Positions 1,187 through 29,440 of a stretch of DNA of 34,562 nt are shown here, in pieces. The notes below the pieces were generated by a model. It ran no database searches. It saw only the letters and a list, made by a program, of their open reading frames with translations, and had not been told where the DNA came from. The stretch is from a virus, in IMG/VR virus record IMGVR_UViG_3300043172_000287, positions 1-34,562 of that record; one strand, given 5' to 3'. Position 1 is the stretch's first letter. Every line of letters starts with the position of its first letter. The translations under genes and the position numbers were made by a program.

Positions 1187-1426
1187 ATGAGTGAAACGGT
1201 GAGTAAACATAGTGACTGGTACCAAATGGAAGAGGAAGTCACTCACTTCTGTGGTGGTAACACATTGAATGAGAAGGTTGGGGTAAACAAACCCAAGGGT
1301 ACACAAACAGAGTTGACCAAGTGGTTCAACCCTACCACTAAAGAGGATGACTCAGATACCAGTACGTGCAACGCTTGCGGTGCTGAGTACAAACAAGGCG
1401 ACCAACTGAATAAGATAGGGAGTTAA
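1187..1426 (+). CDS. Small hypothetical protein with a CxxC knuckle
   Basis: This 79-residue protein begins 7 bp after the metallopeptidase gene. It is hydrophilic and Thr/Lys/Glu-rich. Near the C-terminus it has CNACGAEYKQGD, a single CxxCG zinc-knuckle-like motif. One pair of cysteines cannot complete a zinc site, so binding would need dimerisation, a partner or other ligands such as upstream His residues. A purine-rich GTGAGG precedes the ATG at short spacing. I do not recognise a family. Confidence 0.65.
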   Translation: MSETVSKHSDWYQMEEEVTHFCGGNTLNEKVGVNKPKGTQTELTKWFNPTTKEDDSDTSTCNACGAEYKQGDQLNKIGS

Positions 1427-2435: not shown

Positions 2436-3694
2436 CCTATAGAAATCCAAGGTATAGAGCTATGGTACGTAACAATTACTATGAGGAGGTAGCCAGGGAT
2501 CAAGTGTATCTAACAGAAGCCGAAGAGATTAGTCTAATCAGTCAGTACACAGAGCAGAAGGCTAAGCTGCATCTCTATGTCCTTGATAGGAAGAGATGTG
2601 TCACGCACTTTCTGAAGGTGTATGATGAGATCAGGGCAGCGGGTACCTCCATAGCTAAGCTGAGTGCGGAGACTAACACCCGTAAGGCAGGGCTCAACAC
2701 TATGATTGATGGTAGGTTCGATGTTCAATTGAAGGCAGCACGTTACGTGGATGCGGCAGTAGATACCAGCTGCTACCTAAGCACCACGCTGTTTGATCTG
2801 AACCTATCGAATGAGATCTATAATGAGATGCTTGCACTGTGCAAGCCCACTAAGAAACTGGATGCTATACGTGATGAGCTAAGTAGGATAGAGGATACCC
2901 TGCTGCGCTCAATGTTGATGGCTGCGTGTGAGATAGCCAAGCGTTGCTCGTCCACCATCCTGAGTATAGATGAGAAGGATGCAGCACAAGAGGCAAAGAT
3001 CTTTCTCCTTGAGTCTATCCGCAGGTACAACCCTGACTATCGGACACCCAAAGGTGAGCGGGTGAAGCTATGTACCTATGCATATGGTAGGGCAGAGCGA
3101 TTGGTCATGGAGTGGGTGCTTACTAACAGCAGGTTGGTACGTGTGCCTCGTTCAAAGATGAAGCGCATACTGATAGTAGTCAAGGCTTATGAGGGCCTCG
3201 ACTCTAGTGATACCAACCTATTCACGGTAACGAAGGAAGCTAATGCTATCATGAAGGGTCGTAAGACATTGACAGCTAACAACGCCTTCGATATCAAGGA
3301 GGTAGATGAACTCATAAAGATCTTGACAAGTAACTACATCAGGTTGGATCAGCCGTTCAATAGAAAAAGCTCAACAGGACCTCTTACTATAGGTGATATG
3401 ATTAGTAACGAGGAACCCTCTGCTGCGGATGTTCTCGAAGCAGCGGATAACAAAGAGCTACTGTTGGATGCTATGCAAGATTACCTTACTAAGCTGGAGC
3501 TACAGATCATAACACTTCGGTACTTCCATGATCCATTGGGGGATGTACCTAAGGCGTTGACTGAGATCGGTCCGTTGCTAGTGTCAGTGTATGGAGGTGT
3601 GAGCTATAGTAGAGAGACAATAAGAAAGTTCGAGAAGATAGCACTAGATAAACTGAAGGCAGTTGAGGAGGTTCAAGAACTATGGTCACTGTAA
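2429..3694 (+). CDS. Divergent sigma-70-family RNA polymerase sigma factor
   Basis: The C-terminal two thirds follow the order of a sigma-70 factor. Region 2-like sequence spans residues 155-242: DAAQEAKIFLLESIRRYNP matches the usual 'D-x-x-QEG-x-x-GLL-x-A-x-x-xF-x-P' pattern, then CTYAYGRAERLV and RLVRVPRS. A region 3 equivalent ends in IRLDQPF followed by TGPLTIGDMI, the typical 'LD-P...L-D' linker. Region 4-like sequence spans 345-412, with LELQIITLRYF, ALTEIG and SRETIRKFEKIALDKLK, the 'SRE-IRQ-E--AL-KLR' helix-turn-helix. The turn between EIG and SRET is about five residues longer than usual. The N-terminal 150 residues are unrecognised. It would bind host core RNA polymerase and redirect it to a phage promoter class. 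The start overlaps the previous gene by 7 bp. Confidence 0.75.
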   Translation: MLAYRNPRYRAMVRNNYYEEVARDQVYLTEAEEISLISQYTEQKAKLHLYVLDRKRCVTHFLKVYDEIRAAGTSIAKLSAETNTRKAGLNTMIDGRFDVQLKAARYVDAAVDTSCYLSTTLFDLNLSNEIYNEMLALCKPTKKLDAIRDELSRIEDTLLRSMLMAACEIAKRCSSTILSIDEKDAAQEAKIFLLESIRRYNPDYRTPKGERVKLCTYAYGRAERLVMEWVLTNSRLVRVPRSKMKRILIVVKAYEGLDSSDTNLFTVTKEANAIMKGRKTLTANNAFDIKEVDELIKILTSNYIRLDQPFNRKSSTGPLTIGDMISNEEPSAADVLEAADNKELLLDAMQDYLTKLELQIITLRYFHDPLGDVPKALTEIGPLLVSVYGGVSYSRETIRKFEKIALDKLKAVEEVQELWSL

Positions 3695-5307: not shown

Positions 5308-5749
5308 GCCGAAGCGACCGGATCGCAAGACAATTCGTGTGTACCTGTATGATGTCAATGTGAGTACAGTGGCGGATGTGGTGCTACTTAAAGATCAATT
5401 CTCCAAGAGGTTTGCACCGGGCACAAAGCAACACAAGGACTACAACTGGTACGACTTCAGTAACGTACAACATGAGGATGTCTACTTGGAAGATGACTTC
5501 GGAACTATGGAAGCTTACATCGAAATCCCTGAAGGCCCTGACCAGTGGGCTGTTAGACTAGGGAAGTACAACGAAAGGCTCAGCGTCTACAATGAGTGGG
5601 CTAAGGATAAGAAGGTGGAGATCGCAGCAGAAGAGAAGCGAAGAGAAGCAGCAGCTCTCAGGAAGAAACAAGGTATGATCGAAGACATCAACGCCAAGAT
5701 AGTACAGCTAACAGCTGAGGCTAAGGGACTAGAGGATGAAATCCTTTAA
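5282..5749 (+). CDS. Hypothetical protein with C-terminal coiled coil
   Basis: This 155-residue protein has a very basic N-terminus (ARMKLRRKPKRPDRK) and a beta-rich middle with acidic patches. From about residue 100 it has a continuous Lys/Glu/Ala helix (EEKRREAAALRKK, then IVQLTAEAKGLEDEI) expected to form a coiled coil. It overlaps the HNH-like gene by 26 bp and the next gene by 14 bp, a strong sign of operon expression. A GAGGAAAAG ribosome site precedes the ATG. The function is unknown. Confidence 0.65.
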   Translation: MARMKLRRKPKRPDRKTIRVYLYDVNVSTVADVVLLKDQFSKRFAPGTKQHKDYNWYDFSNVQHEDVYLEDDFGTMEAYIEIPEGPDQWAVRLGKYNERLSVYNEWAKDKKVEIAAEEKRREAAALRKKQGMIEDINAKIVQLTAEAKGLEDEIL

Positions 5750-5987
5750 GGATATATTTACATGGGTTAATAATCCTAACGCTAGAAAGATACACCTAAC
5801 TGTAAATAGTGAGTGGTATCTCTACTCCTATGAGGGTAGGTTACTTACTGCTCATGGATGTGAGCAGTCTTATGGAGGTAGTATATTTGAAGGAGAAATT
5901 AACCACTGTGCTTACTGTCAGGCTGAAGTACCTACTTCTATGGAGGTAGCAGGTAAGCTACTGGTATGGGGTAACGACTATGAGTGA
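5736..5987 (+). CDS. Small CxxC protein, member A of a dispersed paralogous family
   Basis: This 83-residue protein has an early Trp-centred strand (SEWYLYSY) and a late motif CAYCQAEVPTSMEVAGKLLVW. The plan 'polar/Gly-x-W-hydrophobic...CxxCxxx(I/V/A)P...' recurs in four other small genes of this window (5980, 8457, 8726, 16143). The local sequence is more A+T-rich than the flanking genes. It probably forms a small zinc-ribbon-like fold, although one CxxC gives only two ligands. Its ATG lies 14 bp inside the preceding gene and it ends 8 bp inside the next family member. Confidence 0.7.
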   Translation: MKSFKDIFTWVNNPNARKIHLTVNSEWYLYSYEGRLLTAHGCEQSYGGSIFEGEINHCAYCQAEVPTSMEVAGKLLVWGNDYE

Positions 5988-6300
5988 CCTAGGTGGTAAA
6001 TTCAGAGTGAATCACCCGAATGATGTGATAGCTAAGGATGGGTGGCATGTAGTACGCAACGAACGATCATACGATATGTATGGTGATGGTAACAAGAGGA
6101 TGATATGGTACAACACGTACCACTACCATGAAGGGATAGGGCTCAACCGCTGCACCGTGTCTCCCTCGGTATCCCTGGTAAGGGAAGGTGAGATCACGTT
6201 GACACCTCACATGTTTTGCCGTAGCTGTAGCACAGAGGTACCGGAATATATCCAAGGGTTCTTGAAGATGATTGCATGGAGTGAAAGAGATGAAGATTGA
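5980..6300 (+). CDS. Small CxxC protein, member B of a dispersed paralogous family
   Basis: This 106-residue protein shares the family plan: DGWHVVR near residue 20 and CRSCSTEVPEYIQGF near residue 80, then a hydrophobic KMIAW. It directly follows member A with an 8-bp overlap, so the two look like a tandem pair. The middle is longer and richer in Tyr/His than in the others. The end overlaps the helicase gene by 11 bp. The molecular function is unknown. Confidence 0.7.
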   Translation: MSDLGGKFRVNHPNDVIAKDGWHVVRNERSYDMYGDGNKRMIWYNTYHYHEGIGLNRCTVSPSVSLVREGEITLTPHMFCRSCSTEVPEYIQGFLKMIAWSERDED

Positions 6301-7759
6301 GTTCGATAATACCATAGCCTTGGTTAAGCCTGCCTCTGATGGTGAGCTTGAGATGTACGCCAAGGTGAGAGATCAGATAAAGACTATGGCCCCCGGTGCT
6401 AAGTACATGCACAACCATAAGCTGTACCTCCGTACCAGTGGGAAGCATGGTTGGGATGGTAAGGCAAGTGTGCTTAGTAAGCCACACCCTAGCAACAAGA
6501 GCGCCTTCTTCCCGACAGGGCTATTGCCTTACGTGTATAAACAACTGATGAGCCTGATGCCTAAAGAGGTCATCAGCTTCAGTGATCTACGCAATGTGCC
6601 CAAGGCTCAGGTAGGTAAGCTAACCGTACCTCTGTATGATTTCCAGCGGATAGCCTATGACTCAGCGATGCACAACACAGTGACTATGGGTGGCAACGTG
6701 TTCGACTGGCCGTGTGGTGTGCTGAAGATAGCTACTGGTGGTGGTAAGACAGAGCTAGCCGTTGCCATGTTCGAGACTAACCCCGTGCCTACTATATTCG
6801 TGGTGCATCGCAAGCACCTGATGAGTCAGGCTATTAGGAGATTCGCTAAGTATGGTGTGACAGCAGGACAGATAGGCGACAGTGTATTTGATCCGGACCC
6901 CAACGGTATCTCGGTGGCCACGATCCAGACACTACACAACAGGCTCAAGGAAGGGGACATGAGCAAGGTCAACCAGTTCATCAAAGCAGGGCAGATCTTC
7001 TTTGATGAGGCCCACCTGTGTGCTAGTAAGCTGGACAAGGGCAACCAGTTCATTCAGTTGAGTAGGCAGTTCCGCCATGCCTACTACCGTTGGGGTCTGA
7101 CGGCTACACCCTTCATGAAGGATGAGTACAGCAACCAATTGTTGCAGGGTGCCACGGGTGATCTACTGTGTAGTATCAGCAACGATCAGCTCATCAAGGC
7201 TGGGCACCTCACCCCACCACGGGTGGTCATCATCGACATGCCCCCGCTGGGTGGGCCTAAGAAATGGCCGGAGGTGTATGAGTCCAGCATCATGTGGAAC
7301 AAGATGCGGAACGACCGCATCATTGAGGAACTAGAGAAGTGTCCGAAGCCTGCCTTTGTGATGTGTACTAGATTAACACATGCAAGTATGCTACATACTA
7401 TGGCGGAAACAAAGGGGATTTCTCTTCCCGCAGTTCAGCACGGTAAAACTTCCCTAAAGGATAGGGATGATGTGCTGTCCAAGTTGCAGGCAGGCAAGGA
7501 AAAAGCTATAATAACAACAACCATCTACGATGATGGGGTGGATCTCCCTGATCTACGTACCCTCATCCTAGCAGGAGGAGGTAAGTCTACCGTAGCTAAC
7601 CTACAAAGGATAGGCCGTGGCCTACGTAAGGCAGCAGGCAAGCATGAGGTGCTAGTCATTGACTTCAATGACAAGACAGGTGCCATACTGAAGAGGCACA
7701 GCACGGCACGCAAGAAGGTATGGAAGGATGAAGGGTTTAACATTGAGGAGACATCATGA
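6290..7759 (+). CDS. SF2 DNA/RNA helicase, UvsW-like
   Basis: This 489-residue superfamily 2 helicase has Walker A ATGGGKT (148-154), DEAH box FFDEAH (237-242), motif III LTATPF, motif V DDGVDLPDL and motif VI QRIGRGLR (439-446). A Q-motif-like YDFQRIAYD precedes Walker A. The short N-terminal region and single two-lobe core resemble T4 UvsW/RAD25-type helicases that remodel branched DNA during recombination-dependent replication. The ATG chosen has a GAAAGAG site in front and overlaps the previous gene by 11 bp; a TTG 18 bp upstream is less likely. A promoter-like sequence lies inside the reading frame near its 3' part. Confidence 0.9.
   Translation: MKIEFDNTIALVKPASDGELEMYAKVRDQIKTMAPGAKYMHNHKLYLRTSGKHGWDGKASVLSKPHPSNKSAFFPTGLLPYVYKQLMSLMPKEVISFSDLRNVPKAQVGKLTVPLYDFQRIAYDSAMHNTVTMGGNVFDWPCGVLKIATGGGKTELAVAMFETNPVPTIFVVHRKHLMSQAIRRFAKYGVTAGQIGDSVFDPDPNGISVATIQTLHNRLKEGDMSKVNQFIKAGQIFFDEAHLCASKLDKGNQFIQLSRQFRHAYYRWGLTATPFMKDEYSNQLLQGATGDLLCSISNDQLIKAGHLTPPRVVIIDMPPLGGPKKWPEVYESSIMWNKMRNDRIIEELEKCPKPAFVMCTRLTHASMLHTMAETKGISLPAVQHGKTSLKDRDDVLSKLQAGKEKAIITTTIYDDGVDLPDLRTLILAGGGKSTVANLQRIGRGLRKAAGKHEVLVIDFNDKTGAILKRHSTARKKVWKDEGFNIEETS
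7484..7513 (+). promoter_or_regulatory. Possible intragenic promoter inside the helicase gene
   Basis: TTGCAG, an 18-bp spacer and a perfect TATAAT are preceded by the same A-tract and GC dinucleotide found at the three intergenic promoters. AAAAAAGCTATAATA is identical over 15 bases to the promoter at 19852. The bases also encode helicase residues, so this could be chance. If active, it would transcribe the GP88-domain gene and the downstream ligase block. Confidence 0.35.
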
Positions 7760-8460
7760 CGCTACTTAGTAATGCAAAGACCAACGCTAAGACCAAGAAG
7801 ATGTTGGAGGAATTCGGATACGAGGCAGTGATACAATACATGGCCCCGGATAAGGTGGCCGATGGGAAGCACACTGCCTGCCCTTGGGCTACTCAAGGGT
7901 GCCGTGACTCCTGCTTGTACACAGCAGGGCGGGGAGCTATGCGGATGGTGCAGGACTCACGTATCCGTAAGACGTTGAGCTTCTTTGAGGATCACTGGGG
8001 GTATGCGCTGCTGCTACAAGATGAACTAGAGAATCTTGAGAAGCGAGCCATCAAGAATGGCTACGCCCCTGTAGCTAGGCTGAATGGTACGAGTGACATC
8101 AAGTGGGAGGATTACATCCCGATGGAAGCCTTCAGCAACACGCAGTTCTATGACTATACCAAGGGTTACAAGAGGATGTTCAAGTATCTAAACGAGAGCA
8201 AGAGCTTCCCATCAAACTACCACCTCACGTATAGCTTCGATGAGCACACCACACCAAGGCAGGTGGGTAGGATACTCCACTACGGAGGTAACGTGGCCGT
8301 GGTGTTCAAGGATCAGATACCCGAGAAGTTCTGGGGTCACAAGGTTATCTCTGGTATGGAGCATGACTTCAGGTTCCGTGACCCACGAGGGTACATCGTA
8401 GGGCTACTCGCAAGGGGCCGTGCCAAGCAGGACAGCACTGGCTTCGTGGTGTTGGGATGA
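7756..8460 (+). CDS. GP88-domain protein (phage gene product 88 family)
   Basis: This 234-residue protein matches the phage/plasmid gene product 88 family as I remember it. The N-terminal cysteine cluster TACPWATQGCRDSCLYTAGRG (C42, C49, C53) is followed by R-x-x-KT, ARLNGTSDIKWED and FYDYTKGYKRM. The Cys spacing (C-x6-C-x3-C) together with conserved RLNGTSD and YDYTK suggests a metal or cluster site, but no activity is established. It overlaps the helicase by 4 bp (ATGA) and is followed the same way by a CxxC-family gene. Confidence 0.75.
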   Translation: MTLLSNAKTNAKTKKMLEEFGYEAVIQYMAPDKVADGKHTACPWATQGCRDSCLYTAGRGAMRMVQDSRIRKTLSFFEDHWGYALLLQDELENLEKRAIKNGYAPVARLNGTSDIKWEDYIPMEAFSNTQFYDYTKGYKRMFKYLNESKSFPSNYHLTYSFDEHTTPRQVGRILHYGGNVAVVFKDQIPEKFWGHKVISGMEHDFRFRDPRGYIVGLLARGRAKQDSTGFVVLG

Positions 8461-8729
8461 ATGGGAACTTATGGGATCCTGATTCTAATTACAGTGAGGT
8501 ACTACTTACGATAGGTGATTGGAAACTAATACGAAGATCAGATAATAGCGGTGACGTACTCTATAGGTCAATGATGAGACATGACTGCTCGGAGTATGAT
8601 GGAGAAGAAGTACTGAAGAATGGGGAGGGCCCACAAGAATGCAGTTATTGTGACAGCCGTATACCCGATGAGATCTGGGGTATGTGGCAGCTGCACAATA
8701 TAGATCAAAGAATAAAGTGGAGCCAATGA
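8457..8729 (+). CDS. Small CxxC protein, member C of a dispersed paralogous family
   Basis: This 90-residue protein carries GDWKLIRRS near residue 20 and CSYCDSRIPDEIWGMWQL near residue 62, the same plan as members A, B, D and E. The gene is A+T-richer than the flanking GP88 and ligase genes. It begins with an ATGA overlap on the GP88 gene and ends with another ATGA on member D, so it sits as a coupled insert between enzyme genes. Confidence 0.7.
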   Translation: MNGNLWDPDSNYSEVLLTIGDWKLIRRSDNSGDVLYRSMMRHDCSEYDGEEVLKNGEGPQECSYCDSRIPDEIWGMWQLHNIDQRIKWSQ

Positions 8730-8995
8730 TGCCTACAACTAAAATACACCTACAACTAGATGATGGTTGGTCTATAATGCAAATGCTTAGCAACACAAGC
8801 GCCATAGCAATCTATTGGGTGACACATGAGCACCCAGAGCGGGAAGAAACTTGGAGGTATGTTGATCTCAAGAGGTGCCCCAAGACAAGCAAGATGAAGT
8901 GTATCTTCTGTAATAAAGTAGCACCCACCGAAGCACTTGGATTTTGCAATATGCTAGAGGGTGAAATGGTATACGATGAGGTAAGAAGAAAATGA
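8726..8995 (+). CDS. Small CxxC protein, member D of a dispersed paralogous family
   Basis: This 89-residue protein carries DGWSIMQML near residue 13 and CIFCNKVAPTEALGF near residue 60. It pairs in tandem with member C, as A pairs with B. Two adjacent ATGs (8726 and 8729) could serve as start. The first overlaps the preceding stop; the second has slightly better distance from GTGGAG. The end overlaps the ligase gene by 4 bp. Confidence 0.65.
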   Translation: MMPTTKIHLQLDDGWSIMQMLSNTSAIAIYWVTHEHPEREETWRYVDLKRCPKTSKMKCIFCNKVAPTEALGFCNMLEGEMVYDEVRRK

Positions 8996-9864
8996 AACCG
9001 ATGCTCGCTTGTAAGATCACGTTAATGGAAGAGGTGAATTTCCCTGTACTATGTACACCTAAGATAGATGGGATCAGGTGTGTCACCTTAGCAGGTGGTG
9101 CCCCAAAGAGTAGGACACTGAAGGATATCCCCAACCTGCATATCAGAGAGGAGATCAAAGGGTATGGGGTAGAGGGATTGGATGGAGAGATCTGGATACC
9201 CGGAGCCGAGACATTCGGTGATGTGTCCAGCTGTGTGATGAGGGTGAAGGGTCAGCCTGACTTTGAGTACATCGTGTTTGACAACTGGAAGCTGCTAAAC
9301 AAGCCTTATCATGAGAGAGTAGCCAGCCTCAACAACATACCCAAGCCCACCCCTCCGTGGTTGAAGATACTCCAGCCTGTCACGGTGACAGATGGGGAAG
9401 GGTTCATGCGGTACTGGAATGACTGTGTTGACAAGGAGTATGAGGGTGTGATCGCAAGAAGTAGGGGTGGTGTCTACAAGTATGGTCGCTCCACTATAGG
9501 TGAGCAGCTGCTCATGAAGTACAAGCACTTCGAGGATGATGAGGCAGAGATCATCGGCTTCGAAGAACAGATGACCAACACCAACCCCAAGGTTACGAAT
9601 GCCCTGGGTAGATCACAACGATCCAGTGCCAAGGCAGGGAAGGTACCCGCTGGTAAGCTGGGTAAGTTCAAGTGCCGTAACCTCAAGACAGGTATTGAGT
9701 TTGAGGTGGGCACAGGGTACAGCGACAAGCAACGGATAGAGTACTGGCAGAATAGGCAGGTGTACGTAGGGTACACCCTGAAGTACAGGTACCAACCACA
9801 TGGGGTGAAGCTTAAGCCCCGGTTCCCCACGTTCTTGGGGTTCAGACATAAGGATGATATGTAA
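8992..9864 (+). CDS. ATP-dependent DNA ligase
   Basis: The adenylation domain is complete. The motif I lysine is K24 in PKIDGIR, motif III is EGLDGEIW (61-68), motif IIIa is FEYIVFDNW, motif IV is EGVIAR (151-156) and motif V is LLMKYK (173-178). A C-terminal OB-like region contains GKFKCRNLKTGIEFEVGTG. At 290 residues it is a minimal phage ligase of the T7 type. It would seal nicks during replication and recombination. It starts by ATGA overlap with the preceding small gene. Confidence 0.9.
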   Translation: MKPMLACKITLMEEVNFPVLCTPKIDGIRCVTLAGGAPKSRTLKDIPNLHIREEIKGYGVEGLDGEIWIPGAETFGDVSSCVMRVKGQPDFEYIVFDNWKLLNKPYHERVASLNNIPKPTPPWLKILQPVTVTDGEGFMRYWNDCVDKEYEGVIARSRGGVYKYGRSTIGEQLLMKYKHFEDDEAEIIGFEEQMTNTNPKVTNALGRSQRSSAKAGKVPAGKLGKFKCRNLKTGIEFEVGTGYSDKQRIEYWQNRQVYVGYTLKYRYQPHGVKLKPRFPTFLGFRHKDDM

Positions 9865-10010
9865 TGGCGTGCTTTTGGGGACACAGGTGGACTCAATGGG
9901 GTAAGGTAATGGACGTTGACATACTAACAAGAGATGGGAGGCGAGGTGTAGAACACATGCAACGCAGATCATGTGAGACTTGTAACAGGACAGAAGAAAG
10001 AACACTATAA
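9864..10010 (+). CDS. 48-residue hypothetical phage protein with CxxC
   Basis: This short gene begins MACFWGHRWTQWGKV and ends with RRSCETCNRTEER. The arrangement 'FGHxWxxW ... RxCxxC' is common in small phage proteins of unknown function and suggests a single zinc knuckle. AAGGA lies 9 bp before the ATG, inside the end of the ligase gene, and the start codon touches the ligase stop (TAATG). Confidence 0.6.
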   Translation: MACFWGHRWTQWGKVMDVDILTRDGRRGVEHMQRRSCETCNRTEERTL

Positions 10011-10018
10011 CAACAACA

Positions 10019-10049
10019 GGCACCAAGATGGTCAAGAGACTGAGGTGCC
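10019..10049 (+). other. Inverted repeat before the DnaB-type helicase gene
   Basis: GGCACC and GGTGCC form a 6-bp stem with a 19-nt loop, ending three bases before the AGGAGG ribosome site of the helicase gene. There is no T-run, so it is not a classical terminator. It could affect translation initiation, or be chance. Confidence 0.3.
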
Positions 10050-10061
10050 ACAGGAGGATGC

Positions 10062-11468
10062 ATGAACAACAATAGTACGTTTGATGAGAAGGCATTTCTA
10101 TATGCCTTGACCTCTCGTCCTGAGGATGCGAGGAAGTTTGCGGTATCATTCAAGCCATCATGGCTGCATACCACTGAGTATGTGCCTATCCTGGCTGAGA
10201 TATTCTCATTCACTAGGAAACATGGAGAGCAGCCGTCCATCCCCACCCTACATGAGGTGTTCAAGGACAAGGATGAGGCGGCATACAACCTCAGGTACAA
10301 GGATGCTTTGGATAGCCTCGTCACTGAGATACCTGACAACTCCCGCATGATCTACACATTGGACCAGGCGAGAGATACAGGTGTAGTGCGTGACTTCCAA
10401 GAGCTGACGAACAGCCAAGCATTCCTGGCTAAGCAGGCCGAGCTGAAGGGTAGTGATGTGCTTAAAACATTACACTCATTCTTCAATAAGCATGGTGTGC
10501 TGTCTGAGGATAGGACGATGGATGTAAGGGAGGCCATTGATAACCTCATTGATGTTCATGGTTATCAGCCTGAGCTTATTCGTATCCCTTGTGGCATCCA
10601 CACGATAGACAAGTGGACAGGTGGAGGGCTACGGACCAAGCAGCTAGGTATCATAATGGCCCCCACGGGGGATGGTAAGTCCAGTATGCTGGTGGTCATG
10701 GCGCACAAGATGGCCACGATTGAGCAGCGTAGGGTGTGGATGGTCACCAATGAGCTGTCGCTGGAAGAGCAGACAGAGAGAATGCTGTCCCGCATCACAG
10801 GCACCAAGGTACAGGACATCATTGATGAGCCTGCGTGTGCCTATGAGGGGTTGGATAGGCACTGGAAGGGAGGGCTGGATCAGAGGCTCCGACTTACTGA
10901 GGTCAACCGTGAGGTGAGTGTTGATGACCTCGAAGCAGAGATGATGAAGTGGGTCAACCTGATTGGGTGGAAGCCTGATGTACTGGTGCTTGACTTCATC
11001 GAGCGCATGAAGCCTGTTGACAGCGGGTACAGCAGGGATCGTACATGGGATTGGCTGGGTGCCATCAGCCGTGATCTCTCCCGCTTCGCCAAGCGCCACA
11101 ACATACTGGTGTGGACTGCTGCTCAGACTAATAGGAGTGGGTACGCCAAGGATACGAAGAGGAAGCTGCCGCTTGGGTTGGACATGGCTCAGGGTTCGGT
11201 CAAGCATCTTCAGGAATGTGCCTGCATCATTGGGATGCGGCAAGAGGAGCTGCCTGATGAGAAGATCATCATGGAACTGGTGGATCTGAAGCAACGGTTC
11301 GCTAAAAGATCCAAGCGCTCAGTGTTTCTTGAGTGTGACCTCAGCAAGATGTCAATTACGAATAACGAATACATTAAGGAGACTTGCGAGGTTGATGACA
11401 TCGACAAGAAGGAGGCGATCACACCACGAGAGGAACAGAAGAGGCGGCAGGCTAAGAATAATCGGTGA
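10062..11468 (+). CDS. dnaB: DnaB-type replicative DNA helicase
   Basis: This 468-residue hexameric-type helicase has a RecA core at about residues 175-430. Walker A is APTGDGKSS (200-208), the DnaB-like 'TNELS' is at 229-233, Walker B is DVLVLD (306-311), and WTAAQTNR (351-358) corresponds to motif 3. SKRSVFL near 420 fits the arginine-finger region. The N-terminal 150 residues are helical and would contact primase or loader. No primase zinc or TOPRIM segment is fused; the primase-like gene lies 2 kb downstream. A good AGGAGG site precedes the ATG. Confidence 0.88.
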   Translation: MNNNSTFDEKAFLYALTSRPEDARKFAVSFKPSWLHTTEYVPILAEIFSFTRKHGEQPSIPTLHEVFKDKDEAAYNLRYKDALDSLVTEIPDNSRMIYTLDQARDTGVVRDFQELTNSQAFLAKQAELKGSDVLKTLHSFFNKHGVLSEDRTMDVREAIDNLIDVHGYQPELIRIPCGIHTIDKWTGGGLRTKQLGIIMAPTGDGKSSMLVVMAHKMATIEQRRVWMVTNELSLEEQTERMLSRITGTKVQDIIDEPACAYEGLDRHWKGGLDQRLRLTEVNREVSVDDLEAEMMKWVNLIGWKPDVLVLDFIERMKPVDSGYSRDRTWDWLGAISRDLSRFAKRHNILVWTAAQTNRSGYAKDTKRKLPLGLDMAQGSVKHLQECACIIGMRQEELPDEKIIMELVDLKQRFAKRSKRSVFLECDLSKMSITNNEYIKETCEVDDIDKKEAITPREEQKRRQAKNNR

Positions 11469-11473
11469 TATGG

Positions 11474-11502
11474 TTGCACGCACCGAAAGAAAAAGCTATA
11501 AT
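11474..11502 (+). promoter_or_regulatory. Promoter P1, sigma-70 type
   Basis: TTGCAC, a 17-bp spacer and TATAAT lie immediately after the DnaB stop codon. The spacer ends in AAAAAGC, as in the copies at 19852 and 28427, and GATATGG precedes the -35 box here and (as ATATGG) at 28421. Transcription should begin near 11509 and read through a leader hairpin into the 43-codon gene. Confidence 0.8.
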
Positions 11503-11510
11503 AGGAGCAT

Positions 11511-11540
11511 GAGAGGGGGCCTTTAGTCAGGTACCCTCTC
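11511..11540 (+). other. Leader stem-loop at the predicted 5' end of the P1 transcript
   Basis: GAGAGGG pairs with CCCTCTC (7 bp), and an inner CCT/AGG pairs as well. The stem would begin within a few bases of the predicted P1 start. A hairpin at the extreme 5' end can protect an mRNA from degradation; that role is inferred only. Confidence 0.45.
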
Positions 11541-11571
11541 ACATACACCTGAACATAGGGAGGAACGTTCA

Positions 11572-11703
11572 ATGCATCGAGAGGTCTATCGTGCCGAAGC
11601 ACCGCTCTGCCTAGAGAAAGGGATTAACTACCCCTGCCACTCTGAAAGAGTAAAAACCGGTTCAACACGCCCAGAGGGCACACTGAAAGGTAAAGAAGAA
11701 TAA
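11572..11703 (+). CDS. 43-residue hypothetical protein, first gene after P1
   Basis: The peptide begins MHREVYRAEAPLCLEKG and has a basic C-terminus ending KGKEE. GGGAGGA lies 7 bp before the ATG, a very good ribosome site. The gene sits about 60 nt into the predicted P1 transcript. It has two cysteines and no membrane segment. I recognise no family. The ribosome site and promoter position are the main evidence that it is real. Confidence 0.55.
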   Translation: MHREVYRAEAPLCLEKGINYPCHSERVKTGSTRPEGTLKGKEE

Positions 11704-11984
11704 GAGTAATGAGAACATCAAAGACATCAACAGCAGGAGGAACGAGATCTTTCAGATCTTTTCTTTGTAGATGTTTGTTCTACATATATTGTCTTGGGAC
11801 TGAGCGAAAGCACGCCAGGACAAAATCCCCTGGGGGGCTGATGTATTGGCGGCAAGCTAACCAGCTATCTAACTCCGGGGAACACTACTACCAGCAGCTA
11901 AGTACACTGTGCTGCTGGACCGGCCCCTCTACTGGGTGCGTCATGACGCTCAGTATGAGGGGCTACTAGGTTTAGGAGACAGAC
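11704..11984 (+). other. Hairpin-rich segment with no convincing gene, possible structured RNA
   Basis: Several inverted repeats follow one another: AGATCT/AGATCT around TTC (11745-11759) followed by a T-rich run; TGTAGA/TCTACA (11766-11784); CCAGG/CCTGG (11815-11833); CCAGCAGC/GCTGCTGG (11891-11918, with GGGG/CCCC outside it); and GCCCCTC/GAGGGGC (11923-11963), whose interior also pairs (TACTG/CAGTA, then GCGT/ACGC). An 86-codon frame from 11709 lacks a ribosome site and has a low-complexity, Cys/Ser/Thr-rich product, so I do not call it. The density of stems suggests a structured RNA or a processing/attenuation region downstream of P1. Confidence 0.5.
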
Positions 11985-12167
11985 ATGAGCCATAAGTACA
12001 GAGATGAGTACGTAATCATCATCCTTCGTGGTTGCCTTGATGATCTGCTCAATAGGATGGATAAGTACATCGACCGCCGGGTGCCTGATGACGGACCCGA
12101 CATGGAGTACAGCAAGCTGTACGATGAGATGAAGATATGCAAGCAAGCACTGGAGGATACCAAATGA
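11985..12167 (+). CDS. Small hypothetical protein
   Basis: This 60-residue, mostly helical, charged protein (YRDEYVIIILRGCLDDLLNRM near the start) has AGGAGA 7 bp before the ATG. It is coupled to the next gene by ATGA. It has no metal motif and is not recognised. It is the first gene after the hairpin-rich segment, so the long stem at 11923-11963 lies just ahead of its ribosome site. Confidence 0.65.
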   Translation: MSHKYRDEYVIIILRGCLDDLLNRMDKYIDRRVPDDGPDMEYSKLYDEMKICKQALEDTK

Positions 12168-12412
12168 TGTGGAGATTCAAGGAATGGGCACTAAGAATGA
12201 CAGAGCCTTGGCTTGAGGAGAGAGCCAGCCTCATGCTTGAGTGGCGTGTGTTCGCACAGAAGCACAACGCCAAGTACCCAGGAGATATACAGTGTGTGTA
12301 CAAGGGCATGGAGCTTAACCCTATGGATAAGATGCACGTTCAGGATGACCACGAGGTTAAGCCTGACTACCTGTGGGATACTTACAACGATGCGAAGGAT
12401 AGACTGGGATGA
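12164..12412 (+). CDS. Small hypothetical protein
   Basis: This 82-residue protein is rich in Trp, Met and Asp (MMWRFKEWALRMTEPW at the start). Adjacent ATGs at 12164 and 12167 are both possible; GGAGG lies about 8 bp upstream. An in-frame ATG at 12137 is inside the preceding gene and lacks a site. The end overlaps the following gene by ATGA. No family is recognised. Confidence 0.65.
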   Translation: MMWRFKEWALRMTEPWLEERASLMLEWRVFAQKHNAKYPGDIQCVYKGMELNPMDKMHVQDDHEVKPDYLWDTYNDAKDRLG

Positions 12413-12780
12413 GGCGAGACAAACTGGAAAGGATCATCAAGTTGATACGTTGGAAGAAACCCAAGTGGTTCTATAAGAGGTGCAGTCAGTGTTCCGATGA
12501 TGTGAAGGATGAAAACATGTGGTACTTCAAGCAGTACTACAGCGGTTATGCAGGGTACCCTTCTCTATGCAGCAAGACATGGGTGTGTATGGAGTGTGCG
12601 CCTCGCATGTCGGATGTCATTCTGCTAAACAGTAAGTACTTCGGTGACCACTATGGTGACGTTGACCTCGCCCCTCTCGTGGATGAAGAGGAAGAAATGG
12701 CGATGCTTGTGGCTGAAGGTGCGACCTGGGGAGAGGAGGGGATCAAGCTCCTCAAGCAGGATATTGATGCCGGTGTATGA
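12409..12780 (+). CDS. Hypothetical protein with zinc-ribbon-like cysteines
   Basis: This 123-residue protein has a basic N-terminus (RRDKLERIIKLIRWKKPKW). It then has CSQC near residue 25 and CSK...CMEC near residues 54-63, a spacing that suits a four-Cys zinc ribbon. The C-terminal half is strongly acidic (VDEEEEMAML). Together this suggests a small nucleic-acid or protein adaptor; the function is unknown. The last 14 bp overlap the next gene. Confidence 0.65.
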   Translation: MRRDKLERIIKLIRWKKPKWFYKRCSQCSDDVKDENMWYFKQYYSGYAGYPSLCSKTWVCMECAPRMSDVILLNSKYFGDHYGDVDLAPLVDEEEEMAMLVAEGATWGEEGIKLLKQDIDAGV

Positions 12781-12988
12781 GTATCTATGTGACAAGGGGC
12801 ATGAGACAGAGGTGGAGCAGTCCATCAAGGATGATGCCTTGACTGAGTGCCTCTACTATACGGATAAAGAGAAGCGTCTGGCTTCGACGCACTGCGCTCA
12901 GGAGTGCGGTGCCCCGTGTCGTAGGCTGATACCTAATACCAGCTTCAAGTTCAAGGGTGGGCCTCCCACCCCGAAGTACCACACATAG
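12767..12988 (+). CDS. FmdB-like zinc-ribbon protein
   Basis: The 73-residue product begins MPVYEYLCDKGHETEVEQS and later has CAQECGAPCRRLIPNTSFKFKGGPP. This is the pattern of the FmdB zinc-ribbon family: 'MPxYEYxCxxCGxxFE', a second Cys pair, then 'F-x-F-x-GG'. The first pair is C-x3-H rather than CxxC, a mild departure. Members are tiny and often called putative regulators without a proven role. The start is inside the preceding gene, with GCAGGAT before it. Confidence 0.7.
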   Translation: MPVYEYLCDKGHETEVEQSIKDDALTECLYYTDKEKRLASTHCAQECGAPCRRLIPNTSFKFKGGPPTPKYHT

Positions 12989-12996
12989 GAGATAGC

Positions 12997-13089
12997 ATGA
13001 GCGTAACACTGAAAGATATTTGGCTGTGTCAACTGATTCAGATAGCGCAGTTTGGTATGATCATTGGCCTACTGTTGGTTAAGCTATGA
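12997..13089 (+). CDS. 30-residue membrane micropeptide
   Basis: The peptide starts MSVTLKDIWLC and ends in a hydrophobic run (FGMIIGLLLVKL), consistent with one short transmembrane helix. TAGGAGATAGC provides a ribosome site close before the ATG. Its stop overlaps the next start as ATGA. Its place in a chain of coupled genes supports it being translated; the function is unknown. Confidence 0.5.
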   Translation: MSVTLKDIWLCQLIQIAQFGMIIGLLLVKL

Positions 13090-13271
13090 GCGACCTGACA
13101 TTCGAGGTGACTGAGTTCTTTCAGGATAAGCAGCAGCGATTCGAGGCGGCACTGAAGTTTGCTACTTGCATGCGGTATGAGTTTGGTAAGCCCCTCAGTC
13201 CTATGAGTATCAAGTTCGCAGTACAGAGGGCCGACGAACTGATCGCCGAGCTGGAAGAGACAGAGAAATGA
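13086..13271 (+). CDS. Small helical protein, first of a tandem paralogous pair
   Basis: This 61-residue helical protein shares with its downstream neighbour the start MSDL, a central Q-RFEA-L, a Pro at the same relative place and a terminal A--AD---A-LE. The two are adjacent, of equal length and coupled by ATGA, which points to tandem duplication followed by divergence. This copy has an internal Cys and a basic middle (RYEFGKPLSP). The function is unknown. Confidence 0.7.
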   Translation: MSDLTFEVTEFFQDKQQRFEAALKFATCMRYEFGKPLSPMSIKFAVQRADELIAELEETEK

Positions 13272-13450
13272 GTGACCTTGAGATACTAGAGGAAATGGTA
13301 AAGGAATACCAGAAGAGCGAGCAACGATTTGAGGCAACACTGAGGATCTACCTCCAGCGTGAAGGGGGTAGGTACTCAACACCGCTGGCTAACATTCAGG
13401 ATGCTATCGAAGAGGCAGACGCAATGCTTGATGCGTTAGAAAACGAATGA
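13268..13450 (+). CDS. Small helical protein, second of a tandem paralogous pair
   Basis: This 60-residue acidic helical protein (MSDLEILEEMVKEYQKSEQR) is similar to the gene just upstream, sharing the RFEA-L core and the C-terminal I-DAIEEADAMLDALE. Both probably form helical hairpins or dimers. The stop overlaps the start of a 24-residue hydrophobic peptide. No family is recognised. Confidence 0.7.
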   Translation: MSDLEILEEMVKEYQKSEQRFEATLRIYLQREGGRYSTPLANIQDAIEEADAMLDALENE

Positions 13451-13521
13451 TTATCTTCGGGATTACACTGGTGGTGTACATATTGATGTGGGCTTTAATA
13501 TGGGGCATAGCTTGTGACTGA
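13447..13521 (+). CDS. 24-residue membrane micropeptide
   Basis: Almost the whole product is one hydrophobic helix (MIIFGITLVVYILMWALIWG), long enough to span a membrane. It is coupled to both neighbours: ATGA at its start, and its last 8 bp overlap the GTG start of the primase-like gene. No separate ribosome site is obvious, so it would rely on coupling. Confidence 0.45.
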   Translation: MIIFGITLVVYILMWALIWGIACD

Positions 13522-14359
13522 GTATAGCAAGGCTGACATTGCACAGTGGCTCCTCGGGGCCTTCGCCGTGAACAAGAAGAACGGTGATGAACTACAGTTC
13601 GACTGCCCTGAGTGCGACCACCCCCAGTTCTACTTCAACGTGAGCAAGGGGGTTGGGTACTGCCATCGGGCATCATGCCGTATCACCATCAACATGGATG
13701 AGATGATTGACAGGGTAGGCTATGTCCCTGATCTTGCAGGGTATGTGCCTGCTCTTGACAACATCAACGCCGTCGTATCTCTGCCGGTGACCCTGCCCAA
13801 GGATGCCAAGCAGATCGAGTACCTCGATCTAGCCGTGGATGCACTGGCCTTCAGAGGTGTGGGTTGGGATCACATCCAGCAGTTCAAGATCCATCAGGAT
13901 GACAAGCGATTGTACGTGCCAGTGTATGAGGATGGTGAGCTACGCCAGTACAACAGCCGACGAGTGGACAAGAGCAAGGCACCTTTGGATTGGTTCGATG
14001 CAGGGCCGAAGCCTTATCGGTATGCTTCAGGCCACCCCATCACTCATTACTTCCTGGGTTGGGAGGAGTGTAAGCTGTGGGAGGATCTGGTACTGGTAGA
14101 GAACACGTTTGTTTCTATGTGGTTGCGTCACCTACATGCTACCGCTACGTTCGGGTCACACCTGAGTGACGAGCACATCTACAAGATACAACACAGCAAG
14201 ATCAAGAGGGTGACCTTCTTGTGGGATGAGGGGACAGGGGTTGCCAGTGAGAAAGCGGTGCGTAAACTAAGGGACTTAGGGATAGCGTGCAAGGTGATAG
14301 AGATTAAAGGTCAGCCGGATGACTACACCTTGGATGAGATACAGGAGATGATGGAATGA
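13514..14359 (+). CDS. DNA primase-like protein (zinc-binding plus TOPRIM)
   Basis: An N-terminal zinc-binding region has C31, C34, C50 and C55 (FDCPEC, then YCHRASC), as in T7-type primases. After a linker containing LYVPVYEDGELRQYNSR comes a TOPRIM-like domain: LVLVEN (E196), FLWDEGTG (D238) and KGQPDDYTLDEI near the C-terminus, which resembles the 'G-DP-D' end of primase TOPRIMs. The acidic DxD is replaced by DE, so the metal site is slightly unusual. It would make primers for the DnaB-type helicase 2 kb upstream. The start is GTG. Confidence 0.82.
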   Translation: MTEYSKADIAQWLLGAFAVNKKNGDELQFDCPECDHPQFYFNVSKGVGYCHRASCRITINMDEMIDRVGYVPDLAGYVPALDNINAVVSLPVTLPKDAKQIEYLDLAVDALAFRGVGWDHIQQFKIHQDDKRLYVPVYEDGELRQYNSRRVDKSKAPLDWFDAGPKPYRYASGHPITHYFLGWEECKLWEDLVLVENTFVSMWLRHLHATATFGSHLSDEHIYKIQHSKIKRVTFLWDEGTGVASEKAVRKLRDLGIACKVIEIKGQPDDYTLDEIQEMME

Positions 14360-15450
14360 GCATAGTAAAAAAGCTAAGTGATATAGCAACCTATGGGGTT
14401 GACTCCTATGGTACTGAGGATGCTCTTGCCTATTTCAATACCATGGAGCACGCTAGAGGTGCAACTGATACCCTCTTGCATAGGTTTGAGGCTGATGGGT
14501 ATGGTGACGCTGTCAAGATCAATGAGGAATTGGTTAAGGTCATGGGAGATCCTGTCCTCAAGCAGGAAAACGTTGTAGATAAGACTTACTACAATGAGTA
14601 CACCGATGCCTCAACCTATATTAGGATCTACTTCAACGGAGGTGAGGATCGTGACATTCAGATCAGAGGGATCACGGCTACCCCTGCTGTATACGACAAG
14701 CTGAAGGAGATTGTCAGCACTTTTATTGACATGAAGAAGCCTTCTAACTTTGTCTTCGCTCTCATGAGTGGGCATAACGGGCTGAGCCTACGATCTGTTG
14801 GTAAGATTAACCATGACCTCGTTGTGGCCAACTACAGTAAGGAAGCTATTGAAGGCTACAAGCATATCACTGAGTGTCTCTCCTCCAAGGATCCCTGCGG
14901 TAGGCTCATCCTACTTCAAGGGGCTCCGGGTACAGGTAAGAGCTACATGATCCGGTCGTTGGTGTCGAACATCAACTCCACCTTCATTGTGGTTGGGGCA
15001 CACATGATCGCTGAGCTGTCGGGGCCTGCTATTCTCCCCGTCATCCTTCAGTGCGTGGACACTGATGATCCTAAGCCCATCACCTTCATCCTTGAAGACT
15101 CGGACATTGCCCTGTCTCATAGGAAGAACGGGGGTGTGGCTGAGCTGAGTGGACTCTTGAACCTTGGTGATGGCCTGCTTGGTGACCTGTTGGACATCAG
15201 GATACTGGCTACCACCAACGCTGAGCTGCTTGATCTGGACCCTGCTGTGGTGCGGCCGGGCCGCATGTGTCAGCACATCAAGCTTGAAGCCTTCAACCCT
15301 AAGGATGCGTCGGCTCTCTATTCTAATATGGTTAAAGGAAAAGCACTGACGCTTAGAAAGCCCACTACCTTGGCCGAGATCTACAGGATGGCCCGTGAGG
15401 ATGGGTGGGTACCGAAAGCAGAGAAGAAGGAGGTGGGACAGTACCTATGA
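14356..15450 (+). CDS. AAA+ ATPase
   Basis: This 364-residue protein has a poorly recognised N-terminal half. The AAA+ core has Walker A GAPGTGKS (189-196), Walker B ITFILEDSD (242-250), sensor 1 ATTN (285-288) and DPAVVRPGRM (295-304), the 'D-A--RPGR' arginine-finger signature. In Walker B the usual hydrophobic-DE is written ED. The core is closest to the FtsH/proteasomal-ATPase/BCS1 type. It is coupled to the primase-like gene by ATGA. It may act as a loader or remodelling factor at the replisome; no protease domain is present. Confidence 0.85.
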   Translation: MSIVKKLSDIATYGVDSYGTEDALAYFNTMEHARGATDTLLHRFEADGYGDAVKINEELVKVMGDPVLKQENVVDKTYYNEYTDASTYIRIYFNGGEDRDIQIRGITATPAVYDKLKEIVSTFIDMKKPSNFVFALMSGHNGLSLRSVGKINHDLVVANYSKEAIEGYKHITECLSSKDPCGRLILLQGAPGTGKSYMIRSLVSNINSTFIVVGAHMIAELSGPAILPVILQCVDTDDPKPITFILEDSDIALSHRKNGGVAELSGLLNLGDGLLGDLLDIRILATTNAELLDLDPAVVRPGRMCQHIKLEAFNPKDASALYSNMVKGKALTLRKPTTLAEIYRMAREDGWVPKAEKKEVGQYL

Positions 15451-15506
15451 GTTGGCTGCTGATCTTGTGGGCCTTACTACTACTCATCTCAGGAGATGAG
15501 CGATGA
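15447..15506 (+). CDS. Possible 19-residue membrane micropeptide
   Basis: MSWLLILWALLLLISGDER is a hydrophobic helix followed by a charged end. It starts by ATGA overlap on the AAA+ gene and its stop overlaps the next start. AGGAGG lies 12 bp upstream, rather far. At this size the evidence is context only. Confidence 0.3.
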   Translation: MSWLLILWALLLLISGDER

Positions 15507-15688
15507 CCATCTGCTGCCAATGCGGGCGGCACTACTGGCCGGGGAAGAAGGAATGCCCTGGTGATCCAACAAGCGATGGGTGTAACCATATACCCTGTGA
15601 TAAGTGTGAACACTACGTTGACAAGAAGGAGAAAGAATATGGAAGATCGACAAAACGGAAGCAGGCTGGGCGCACACAGAAAGCCTAG
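15503..15688 (+). CDS. Small cysteine-rich zinc-finger-like protein
   Basis: This 61-residue protein has CCQCGRHYWPG at the start, then CPGD, GCNHIPCDKC and a very basic tail (KRKQAGRTQK). The Cys/His spacing suits one or two small zinc sites and the tail could bind nucleic acid. AGGAG lies 8 bp before the ATG. The last 50 bp overlap the next gene in another frame, more than is usual here, which lowers confidence a little. Confidence 0.55.
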   Translation: MTICCQCGRHYWPGKKECPGDPTSDGCNHIPCDKCEHYVDKKEKEYGRSTKRKQAGRTQKA

Positions 15689-16118
15689 GGTTTCAGCTGA
15701 GTCATGGATGTTGCTGGTTGGTTTGATCGCTGCCCTCTTCATCTTCTGTGAGCTGGCTACTGCTCAGGAGTACAAGCCCTACACGATAGACACAGGTGTT
15801 ATCGTGGATGGGGCTGAGATATGCTTCTCACCTGACCTCCACGTCACCTCCGTTCAGCTGCTCATTACATGGCAGCGGTTGGTGAATGAGCTTGATGCTT
15901 ACGAGAAGGGTGGGGCTAGGATGAACGAAGAGGATGCCATCGCAGGTGAGCTGCTCTATGAGAACCATCTGTGTGCAACGATGGGTGCGTACTACAGCAT
16001 CGTCATCACTCAGGCTATGGAAGGGTACGTGCTGGCTCACTTCGATGAGCAGTATGGGTTTGGTGAAGGACCTTTCATCGTGGCGAAGAAGGATGTCCTT
16101 CCGGATCACGGCATTTAA
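15639..16118 (+). CDS. Putative exported or membrane-anchored protein
   Basis: This 159-residue protein has a short basic N-terminus and a hydrophobic helix, WMLLVGLIAALFIFCELA, then TAQEYKP. This is either a signal peptide with a possible cleavage after ATA or an N-terminal anchor. The remaining 110 residues would lie outside the cytoplasm and include two cysteines that could pair. AAGGAGA is 7 bp before the ATG. Longer in-frame starts upstream lack a site. The function is unknown. Confidence 0.65.
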   Translation: MEDRQNGSRLGAHRKPRVSAESWMLLVGLIAALFIFCELATAQEYKPYTIDTGVIVDGAEICFSPDLHVTSVQLLITWQRLVNELDAYEKGGARMNEEDAIAGELLYENHLCATMGAYYSIVITQAMEGYVLAHFDEQYGFGEGPFIVAKKDVLPDHGI

Positions 16119-16142
16119 TGATGATTATCACAGGATAAAGTA

Positions 16143-16571
16143 ATGGACCAGAAGATTAAAGATAAAATAGCTGAGCAGTATGGGCCGATCAAGCTTAACC
16201 GTGGGCGCTGGTTTATTATAGCTGATGCTCTAGATAAGGGAGCACCTCATGAGCTATGGCACCTATGTGATCCAAGGTTTAAGGAGGATCTAGACTTCGC
16301 CACGTACCAAACTTGTTCGTGGTATGATGACAGGCCTATCACCCCTAACTGGAGGTGCAGCTGCAACAAGATTCCACCTGATAGTATCGTGGCAGTATGG
16401 TGCCTGCTGGAACCGGACCATACCTCTGAGTGTATCCAAGAGGCACTCAAATTTAACATTGAGGATGAGCTGCAGGATGCAGCTGATGAGTACGCGATGG
16501 CTATCTGGGGACCTATGGAAGAGGAGTCGTGGGATTATATGCATGACATAGGAGATCTCCTTGGAAGCTGA
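16143..16571 (+). CDS. CxxC-family-like protein, member E, with C-terminal extension
   Basis: This 142-residue protein repeats the family plan: GRWFIIADAL near residue 21 and CSCNKIPPDSIVAVWCLL near residue 77. The cysteines are spaced C-x-C instead of CxxC. An acidic helical tail of about 45 residues (IEDELQDAADEYAMA) is absent from the others. Like them it is A+T-richer at its start than nearby genes. AGGATAAAG precedes the ATG. Confidence 0.68.
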   Translation: MDQKIKDKIAEQYGPIKLNRGRWFIIADALDKGAPHELWHLCDPRFKEDLDFATYQTCSWYDDRPITPNWRCSCNKIPPDSIVAVWCLLEPDHTSECIQEALKFNIEDELQDAADEYAMAIWGPMEEESWDYMHDIGDLLGS

Positions 16572-16707
16572 AGACAAAGAGTGTACCTGTTGTTCTATCA
16601 TTCCTGACCCGGAGTTTTGTAAGTGTGGGTGTGGGGGCTGTTGTACTGATGAGGGATTCATCGAGTGGGCGGTGGCAATACAGGAGGCAAAGATCCGTGA
16701 GTCTTAG
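16561..16707 (+). CDS. 48-residue cysteine-rich protein, TTG start
   Basis: Eight cysteines occur within 21 residues (CTCCSIIPD, then CKCGCGGCC), enough for two metal ions or a small cluster. CTCCSIIPD resembles the CxxC...IP motif of the neighbouring family. The TTG start lies 6 bp after TAGGAG and overlaps the end of the preceding gene by 11 bp. The C-terminal half is an ordinary amphipathic helix. The short length and rare start codon keep confidence moderate, but such a Cys pattern is unlikely by chance. Confidence 0.5.
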   Translation: MEAEDKECTCCSIIPDPEFCKCGCGGCCTDEGFIEWAVAIQEAKIRES

Positions 16708-16817
16708 AGAAGACCTACACACTTGTTATACTATAGTTAAGCTTAAGTGTATCCGTAAAGTCCTTCGGTTTGTCATGGGGCTCCACGTTCGGCATGAGCT
16801 ACGTAAAAAGGAGAAGG
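16708..16817 (+). promoter_or_regulatory. A+T-rich spacer with inverted repeats before the polymerase gene
   Basis: The spacer contains ACACTT (16719-16724) and AAGTGT (16745-16750), able to pair, plus the palindrome TTAAGCTTAA and a TATACT that could be a -10 box without a good -35. AAAAGGAG near its end is the ribosome site of the polymerase gene. I see no convincing gene. It may hold a weak promoter or a regulatory hairpin. Confidence 0.35.
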
Positions 16818-19851: not shown

Positions 19852-19880
19852 TTGCACGGACCAGAGAAAAAAGCTATAAT
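19852..19880 (+). promoter_or_regulatory. Promoter P2, sigma-70 type
   Basis: TTGCAC, a 17-bp spacer ending AAAAAAGC, and TATAAT start two bases after the preceding stop codon. It has the same boxes and A-tract as P1 and P3. It should drive the ssDNA-binding protein, RecA and gp46/47 block, with a leader of about 43 nt before the next ATG. Confidence 0.8.
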
Positions 19881-28426: not shown

Positions 28427-28455
28427 TTGCACACAGTGGAAATAAAAGCTATAAT
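28427..28455 (+). promoter_or_regulatory. Promoter P3, sigma-70 type
   Basis: TTGCAC, a 17-bp spacer ending AAAAGC, and TATAAT are followed by AGTAG. ATATGG precedes the -35 box as at P1. Transcription should begin near 28462, only about a dozen bases before the DUF3310 ATG, leaving a very short leader that contains GGGAG. Confidence 0.8.
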
Positions 28456-28965: not shown

Positions 28966-29440
28966 CGACAAGGACAGCTCATCTCGATGGGATACCTTCT
29001 TCATGGATATGGCTTTCCTTGTGGCATCCAAGTCCAAGGATAGGTCTGTCAAGGTAGGGTCGGTAGCTGTAGGAGAGGCCCACAATATGCTGGCCATGGG
29101 GTACAACGGCTTCGTCAGGTACGCCGATGACGATGATGATGAACGCCACCAGCGACCAGAGAAATATAATTGGACAGCCCACGCTGAGCTGAACGTAGTT
29201 TGCAACGCAGCTCGCAGCGGTACCAAGCTGTTAGATGCGACGTTGTACGTCACCGCCCACCCTTGTGTTGATTGTGCCAAAGCTATCGTACAAGCAGGGT
29301 TCAAGGAAGTGGTCATCCCTTCCAAGGAAGAAGATCCTTTCTGGAAAGCAGGGAGGTGGGGTGATTGGGAAGACAACTTCAAGAAGGCTCAGCAGATCAT
29401 GCATGAAGGGCAAGTGAGGGTCATAGATCATGTCGTTTGA
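28958..29440 (+). CDS. dCMP deaminase-like zinc enzyme
   Basis: This 160-residue cytidine/deoxycytidylate deaminase-fold protein has the catalytic HAE at residues 75-77 ([10 protein letters not shown]) and PCVDC with C103 and C106. [23 protein letters not shown] and an early [11 protein letters not shown] fit dCMP deaminase. It would convert dCMP to dUMP for dTMP synthesis. The start is the ATG overlapping the preceding small gene; the longer frame upstream belongs to that gene in another frame. Confidence 0.85.

Follow-up and report, generated by a model that had tools for sequence, protein, structure and literature searches.

A paralogous family of small proteins with a putative zinc site, expanded between the genes of uncultured tailed phages

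Five related small genes in a phage replication block

The DNA analysed here, referred to as the window, is the 34.6-kb IMG/VR virus record IMGVR_UViG_3300043172_000287 at its full length of 34,562 nucleotides. It carries a phage replication block with genes for a VWA protein, a sigma-like factor, an HNH nuclease, a helicase, gp88 and an ATP-dependent ligase as well as for DnaB, a primase, an AAA protein, PolA, SSB, UvsX, SbcC/D and glycosyltransferases. Five short genes on the plus strand, here termed A to E, are located between these genes. An earlier reading of the same DNA, made without database searches (the sequence-only reading), had proposed that the five share one plan and constitute a single family that was repeatedly duplicated and dispersed between other genes. 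Both proposals were borne out: an invariant Trp, one Cys, a CxxC (C-x-C in E) and a Pro align in all five products, and the family extends to 152 members in 19 contigs.

Gene A (5736..5987) encodes a protein of 83 residues with W27, H40-x-C42, C58-x-x-C61 and P66 and has an orthologue in contig G007 (34% identity). Gene B (5980..6300; 106 residues) features W22, H48-x-H50 plus C58, C80-x-x-C83 and P88, and its orthologues occupy the same junction in G002 (64%) and G007 (33%). Gene C (8457..8729; 90 residues; W22, H42-x-C44, C62-x-x-C65, P70) is situated between gp88 and the ligase gene, as are its orthologues in G002, G005, G007 and G013. For gene D (8726..8995; 89 residues; W15, H34-x-H36, C59-x-x-C62, P67) a close orthologue was not found among the recovered contigs. 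Gene E (16143..16571; 142 residues; W23, H40-x-C42, C72-x-C74, P79) differs by a C-terminal extension and a C-x-C that is one residue shorter than CxxC; instead of the PolA junction, its orthologues occupy positions within gene arrays, in G001 (39%) and in G011. The coupling of tandem pairs by ATGA-type overlaps that had been suggested applies to C and D, with 4-nt overlaps of C with gp88 (8457), of D with C (8726) and of D with the ligase gene (8992), while A and B overlap by 8 nt.

Evidence for homology was derived from a family profile that was rebuilt five times, each time without the window genes and without any relative of the gene under test. With these leave-orthologue-group-out hidden Markov models (HMMs), A to E all ranked within the top five of the 397 open reading frames (ORFs) of the window, with E values of 3e-7 (A), 4e-8 (B), 4e-15 (C), 5e-9 (D) and 6e-9 (E). 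The similarity is not due to Cys alone and reaches beyond the CxxC: when every Cys and His was masked as X in profile and targets, A to E still outranked all other ORFs of the window (E values of 0.011, 0.014, 1.5e-9, 4e-5 and 8e-5, respectively). Antisense ORFs of all contigs yielded no match at E<1e-3, compared with 152 matches in sense orientation. The profile-profile comparison of the five products that had been recommended gave a mixed picture when small orthologue groups were used alone, with probabilities of 94% for A and C, 90% for B and C and 86% for C and E, and below 50% for all other pairs. Taken alone, these group comparisons reach significance only in part; it is the wider family that carries the argument, and on this basis the five window genes are homologous members of one paralogous family.

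Size and spread of the family

Related IMG/VR contigs were recovered with gp88, DnaB and PolA as anchors by means of strict peptide patterns, and all counts given here cover these contigs. Membership was set by profile and start codons were chosen by rule. The gp88 and DnaB anchors gave 19 contigs, the window and 18 others, and profile searches detected members in each of them; iterated HMM searches led to the total of 152. Contigs added via PolA contain few or no copies; they are short or mainly cover the region downstream of PolA. Two contigs look complete because their ends carry exact terminal repeats: G001 (119,470 bases, 121-base repeat) with 34 copies that make up 8.7% of the sequence and G011 (119,599 bases, 87-base repeat) with 31 copies and 8.4%. 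According to simple gene calls, this corresponds to 34 of 182 genes in G001 and 31 of 185 in G011. An assembly artefact could be ruled out, since these two complete contigs share 24 orthologous pairs of family genes with a median identity of 63.5%.

As far as these strict-pattern scans of IMG/VR reach, the family occurs in a single clade of uncultured tailed phages whose genomes measure 119.5 kb. We are not aware of any other tailed phage in which a single paralogous family of small proteins accounts for a sixth of the genes. There is no close isolated phage, the top match for PolA being 28% identical, and a DnaB-anchored scan of bacterial and archaeal genome contigs did not retrieve any relative, so that no host is assigned. 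The contig of L041 stems from IMG dataset 3300009506, i.e., from Mai Po wetland sediment (PMC6461988).

The proteins have not been catalogued before. HMM scans of A to E against Pfam and PHROGs did not return a match, and scans of 49 members against Pfam and of 123 members against PHROGs, NCBIfam and PADLOC returned isolated matches of single members only, the best with an E value of 6e-4. Likewise, tblastn of C and one G001 member against 50,697 phage records, a search of Rfam and Foldseek searches with models of C and B gave no match, or in the case of Foldseek no significant one. Profile matches in the PDB to RSC8, Nup153, PARP1 and Gemin5 were rejected as being at chance level. Nothing relevant was found in the literature on a phage gene-family expansion of this kind.

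Conserved core, putative metal site and predicted structure

Family proteins comprise about 75 to 140 residues and share a core in which G-x-W is followed by H-x-C or H-x-H, further on by C-x-x-C-(4)-P and finally by a helix. Among 149 non-redundant members with a mean pairwise identity of 21%, the His is present in all 149 and a Cys or His two residues later in 140, as aligned; both Cys of the CxxC occur in 148, the Pro thereafter in 130 and the upstream Trp in 118. All four potential ligands were aligned in 139 of the 149 sequences, and most of the exceptions are HxH motifs shifted by a gap. Four conserved and suitably spaced Cys/His residues are therefore found within one chain, and from this sequence pattern we conclude with high confidence that they would hold one zinc ion inside each monomer. 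The sequence-only reading had counted too few Cys for a full zinc site and supposed that the proteins dimerise or pair with each other. It had missed the HxC/HxH that accompanies the CxxC in each protein, and since each chain thus carries four likely zinc ligands, a dimer is not needed to complete the site. The near-invariance of these ligands over a background of 21% identity marks the core as a compact putative metal-binding scaffold.

An AlphaFold2 model of C, based on an alignment of 49 rows (predicted local distance difference test, pLDDT, 80; predicted template modelling score, pTM, 0.69), contains strands at residues 12-19, 22-27, 38-44 with the HxC at its end, and 49-52, followed by the CxxC knuckle and a helix at 71-81. 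The model of B is weaker (pLDDT 62) and exhibits the main elements in the same order. The shared core consists of two or three beta-strands with G-x-W that end in HxC/HxH, the CxxC knuckle, the Pro and the helix.

The FLYWCH and WRKY-GCM1 domains (C..C..HxH plus Trp) likewise combine beta-strands, a conserved Trp, HxH/HxC and two Cys at a similar size. However, their ligands follow the order C-C-H-x-H, whereas in the family the order is reversed with H-x-C/H preceding C-x-x-C. The FLYWCH structure 2rpr occupied rank 4 among the Foldseek PDB matches of the C model (pLDDT 80) without significance (E 1.9, TM 0.28), and the B model is too poor for such a fold comparison. A zf-PARP domain has a CxxCxxxIP-like knuckle followed by a helix in common with the family, but there CxxC precedes HxxC, and the match (E 0.38 with a 49-row profile) was lost with a 123-row profile. 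Finally, the short phage zinc-finger families phrog_1081 and phrog_54 (DksA-like) also possess a short Cys/His metal motif. Each was matched weakly and by just one of 123 members, phrog_1081 by the G007 orthologue of A over 28 residues (E 6e-4) and phrog_54 by another member (E 5.5e-3), and the phrog_1081 profile did not match anything in five of the contigs.

Junctions, turnover and selection

While the order of core genes is constant, family copies fill the junctions variably with zero to three per junction. Between gp88 and the ligase gene, two copies are present in the window and in G002, one each in G001, G004, G005 and G011 and three each in G007 and G013, and this junction is empty in G003, G006, G008 and G016. 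The junction of helicase and gp88 is empty in the window, where the two genes overlap by 4 nt, and occupied in G003, where the new start again overlaps the helicase gene. Of the reciprocal best pairs between contigs, 138 share a junction, six do not and 24 were undecidable. Nearest paralogues within a genome were neighbours in 9 cases vs. 2.0 expected from permutation (p 0.0008) in one of the complete genomes and in 7 vs. 2.0 (p 0.02) in the other; adjacency was not significant in the three smaller contigs tested.

Because orthologues keep the same junction and nearest paralogues tend to be neighbours, we conclude that tandem duplication, divergence and loss dominate the growth of the family. 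The idea of a small module that is both duplicated and inserted therefore holds for duplication and has to be qualified for insertion. Occupied as well as empty versions of a junction exist, yet the copies are inherited in place, insertion is mostly ancient, and relocation is rare but real, as exemplified by E, which precedes PolA in the window and has its orthologues in the arrays of G001 and G011.

Identity between family orthologues is 48%, compared with 73% for the flanking core genes, and it falls below that of the core in 133 of 136 comparisons, which were restricted to contigs with core identity below 97% and thus exclude near-identical ones. Between G001 and G011 the ratio of nonsynonymous to synonymous substitution rates (dN/dS) amounts to 0.31 for the family (24 pairs) and 0.155 for core genes. 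The family thus diverges about twice as fast as neighbouring genes, yet is under purifying selection. A+T-richness, which had been noted for the five genes, holds in the window and is not a special trait: the G+C content of the family (0.511 vs. 0.535 for large genes) does not differ from that of other small genes (p=0.83).

Arrays and promoter-like motifs

In G001, G011 and G018, the rightward gene block opens with a series of 12-16 family genes, mostly back to back, and immediately before them lies a conserved pair of divergent promoter-like sites, TTGCAA-N17-TATAAT. The first ORF after this pair (29726-30058 in G001 and 33323-33655 in G011, oriented contigs) contains LLHIC...YYCTGC and may, with an E value of 0.04-0.13, represent a very divergent family member. 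In the window, the motif TTGCA-N16-GCTATAAT with its fixed 17-nt spacer has four exact matches on the plus strand (7484-7512, 11474-11502, 19852-19880 and 28427-28455) where 0.01 would be expected. The first of these falls inside the helicase gene, at its 3' end, and precedes gp88, C, D and the ligase gene. Looser matches number 13 and 15 in the two complete relatives, including the divergent pair before the arrays. The motif could serve the transcription machinery of the host or a sigma-like factor encoded by the phage itself. A candidate reader is the product of 2429-3694, which matches the phage sigma-factor family phrog_351 (E 3e-18).

Possible functions

We consider it an even chance that the family consists of early binding proteins with different host targets that are used in host takeover, and we hold with moderate confidence the more general view that its members are early-expressed binding modules. 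Copy number, fast divergence on a fixed scaffold, the position at the start of a block and purifying selection all fit early binders of host targets. The zinc-pinned scaffold would offer a different surface in each paralogue, each surface would bind and then redirect or block a different host protein (polymerase, nucleases, defence factors), and the phage would thereby keep an arsenal prone to turnover. The proteins are mostly acidic, with a median isoelectric point (pI) of 5.8, values above 8 in 14% of members vs. 36% of other small proteins, and a net charge of 0 to -16 for A to E, which renders protein partners more likely than nucleic acids. Several points weigh against this proposal. We infer early expression from position and promoter-like motifs, as in the three contigs where the arrays come after such motifs and open the rightward block, and metal binding from sequence. 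None of the members has an assigned function, an identified target or a relative of solved structure, members are also spread through the replication block and not just at its start, and there was no match to anti-defence or host-takeover families, which are however poorly covered.

T4, SPO1 and other large phages have host-takeover blocks where the early region begins, with many small, fast-changing genes. Those blocks comprise mostly unrelated genes, whereas in the present phages a single homologous family accounts for 12-16 genes in a row and for more than 30 copies in total. Lineage-specific expansions of small folds occur in poxviruses (C7L-like, BCL-2-like) and giant viruses (ankyrin), where they are thought to diversify host targets. 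Such expansion is shared with the family described here, which differs in its fold, its bacterial virus, its intrinsic putative metal site and in that no target is known. The strongest form of the proposal, a zinc-pinned effector arsenal of more than 30 copies that occupies about 8.5% of the genome, with a separate host target for each paralogue, is put forward tentatively. If true, it would be the bacterial-virus counterpart of poxvirus immune-evasion expansions, with a fold absent from the structure libraries searched. If the copies do bind different host proteins, they would also amount to a natural collection of inhibitors, ready to use and built on a single small scaffold, and would offer a view of phages making new host-interaction proteins by tandem duplication.

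An unlikely alternative is that the proteins are small, zinc-finger-like, sequence-specific nucleic-acid-binding regulators of neighbouring phage operons or host genes. Four-ligand zinc motifs are common among DNA- and RNA-binding proteins, the genes lie in a replication and transcription region of genomes in which promoter-like motifs recur, and the single weak matches to phrog_54 and phrog_1081 point in the same direction. The acidity of most members speaks against regulators, as does the absence of matches to known DNA-binding families in Pfam, NCBIfam or PDB. We regard it as improbable that the products serve as translationally coupled accessory subunits of the adjoining enzymes, i.e., helicase, gp88, ligase, DnaB or PolA. 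Orthologues do keep their junction, and 96 of 151 members exhibit an ATGA-type or longer overlap with the upstream gene; overlaps, however, are frequent for all genes of these phages, close relatives with intact enzymes of 50-80% identity lack a copy at these junctions, and 12-16 members reside in arrays far from these enzymes. Near-selfish expansion, with duplicates of little function kept mostly by drift or as recombination substrates, would agree with high turnover, divergence and copy number and with one truncated member that lacks the CxxC (G001 64903-65133). It is nevertheless very unlikely in view of a dN/dS of about 0.3 over 24 orthologue pairs, nearly invariant ligands and the compact genome, in which almost every copy has kept an intact ORF. 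Obligate heterodimers A+B and C+D sharing metal sites, suggested by the two tandem pairs of the window, are hardly credible given four likely ligands per monomer, and the pairs are not conserved: in G005, C is the only copy at its junction, in G002 and G007 it is accompanied by other partners, D has no orthologue, and A-like and B-like genes appear in reversed order in G007.

Doubtful relatives and further features of the window

The sequence-only reading had counted a sixth gene as a member, the TTG-initiated ORF of 48 residues at 16561..16707 (plus strand). This short Cys-rich product lacks the Trp and the HxC and does not match the family profile; it is conserved as a separate ORF beside PolA, and G001 and G007/G012 carry short stretches of homology to it close to PolA. 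A borderline case that was not counted is the gene at 1187..1426 (plus strand), the product of which contains SDW...THFC...CxxC and reaches E values of 0.06-0.2 with the family profile. It occurs as a single copy beside the VWA gene, is conserved in G001, G002, G006, G011 and G018, and is perhaps an ancient relative of the family.

The intergenic stretch 16700-16770 before PolA contains TTGTTATACTATAGTTAAG, which is identical in G002 though the genes are about 79% identical, and is possibly regulatory. A role of TTGTTATACTATAGTTAAG as family promoter was dropped, as it is present in one copy per genome in two contigs. Towards the end of the window, 29430-32555 encodes a protein of 1041 residues with tandem matches to glycosyltransferase families, and the next glycosyltransferase follows at 32872.

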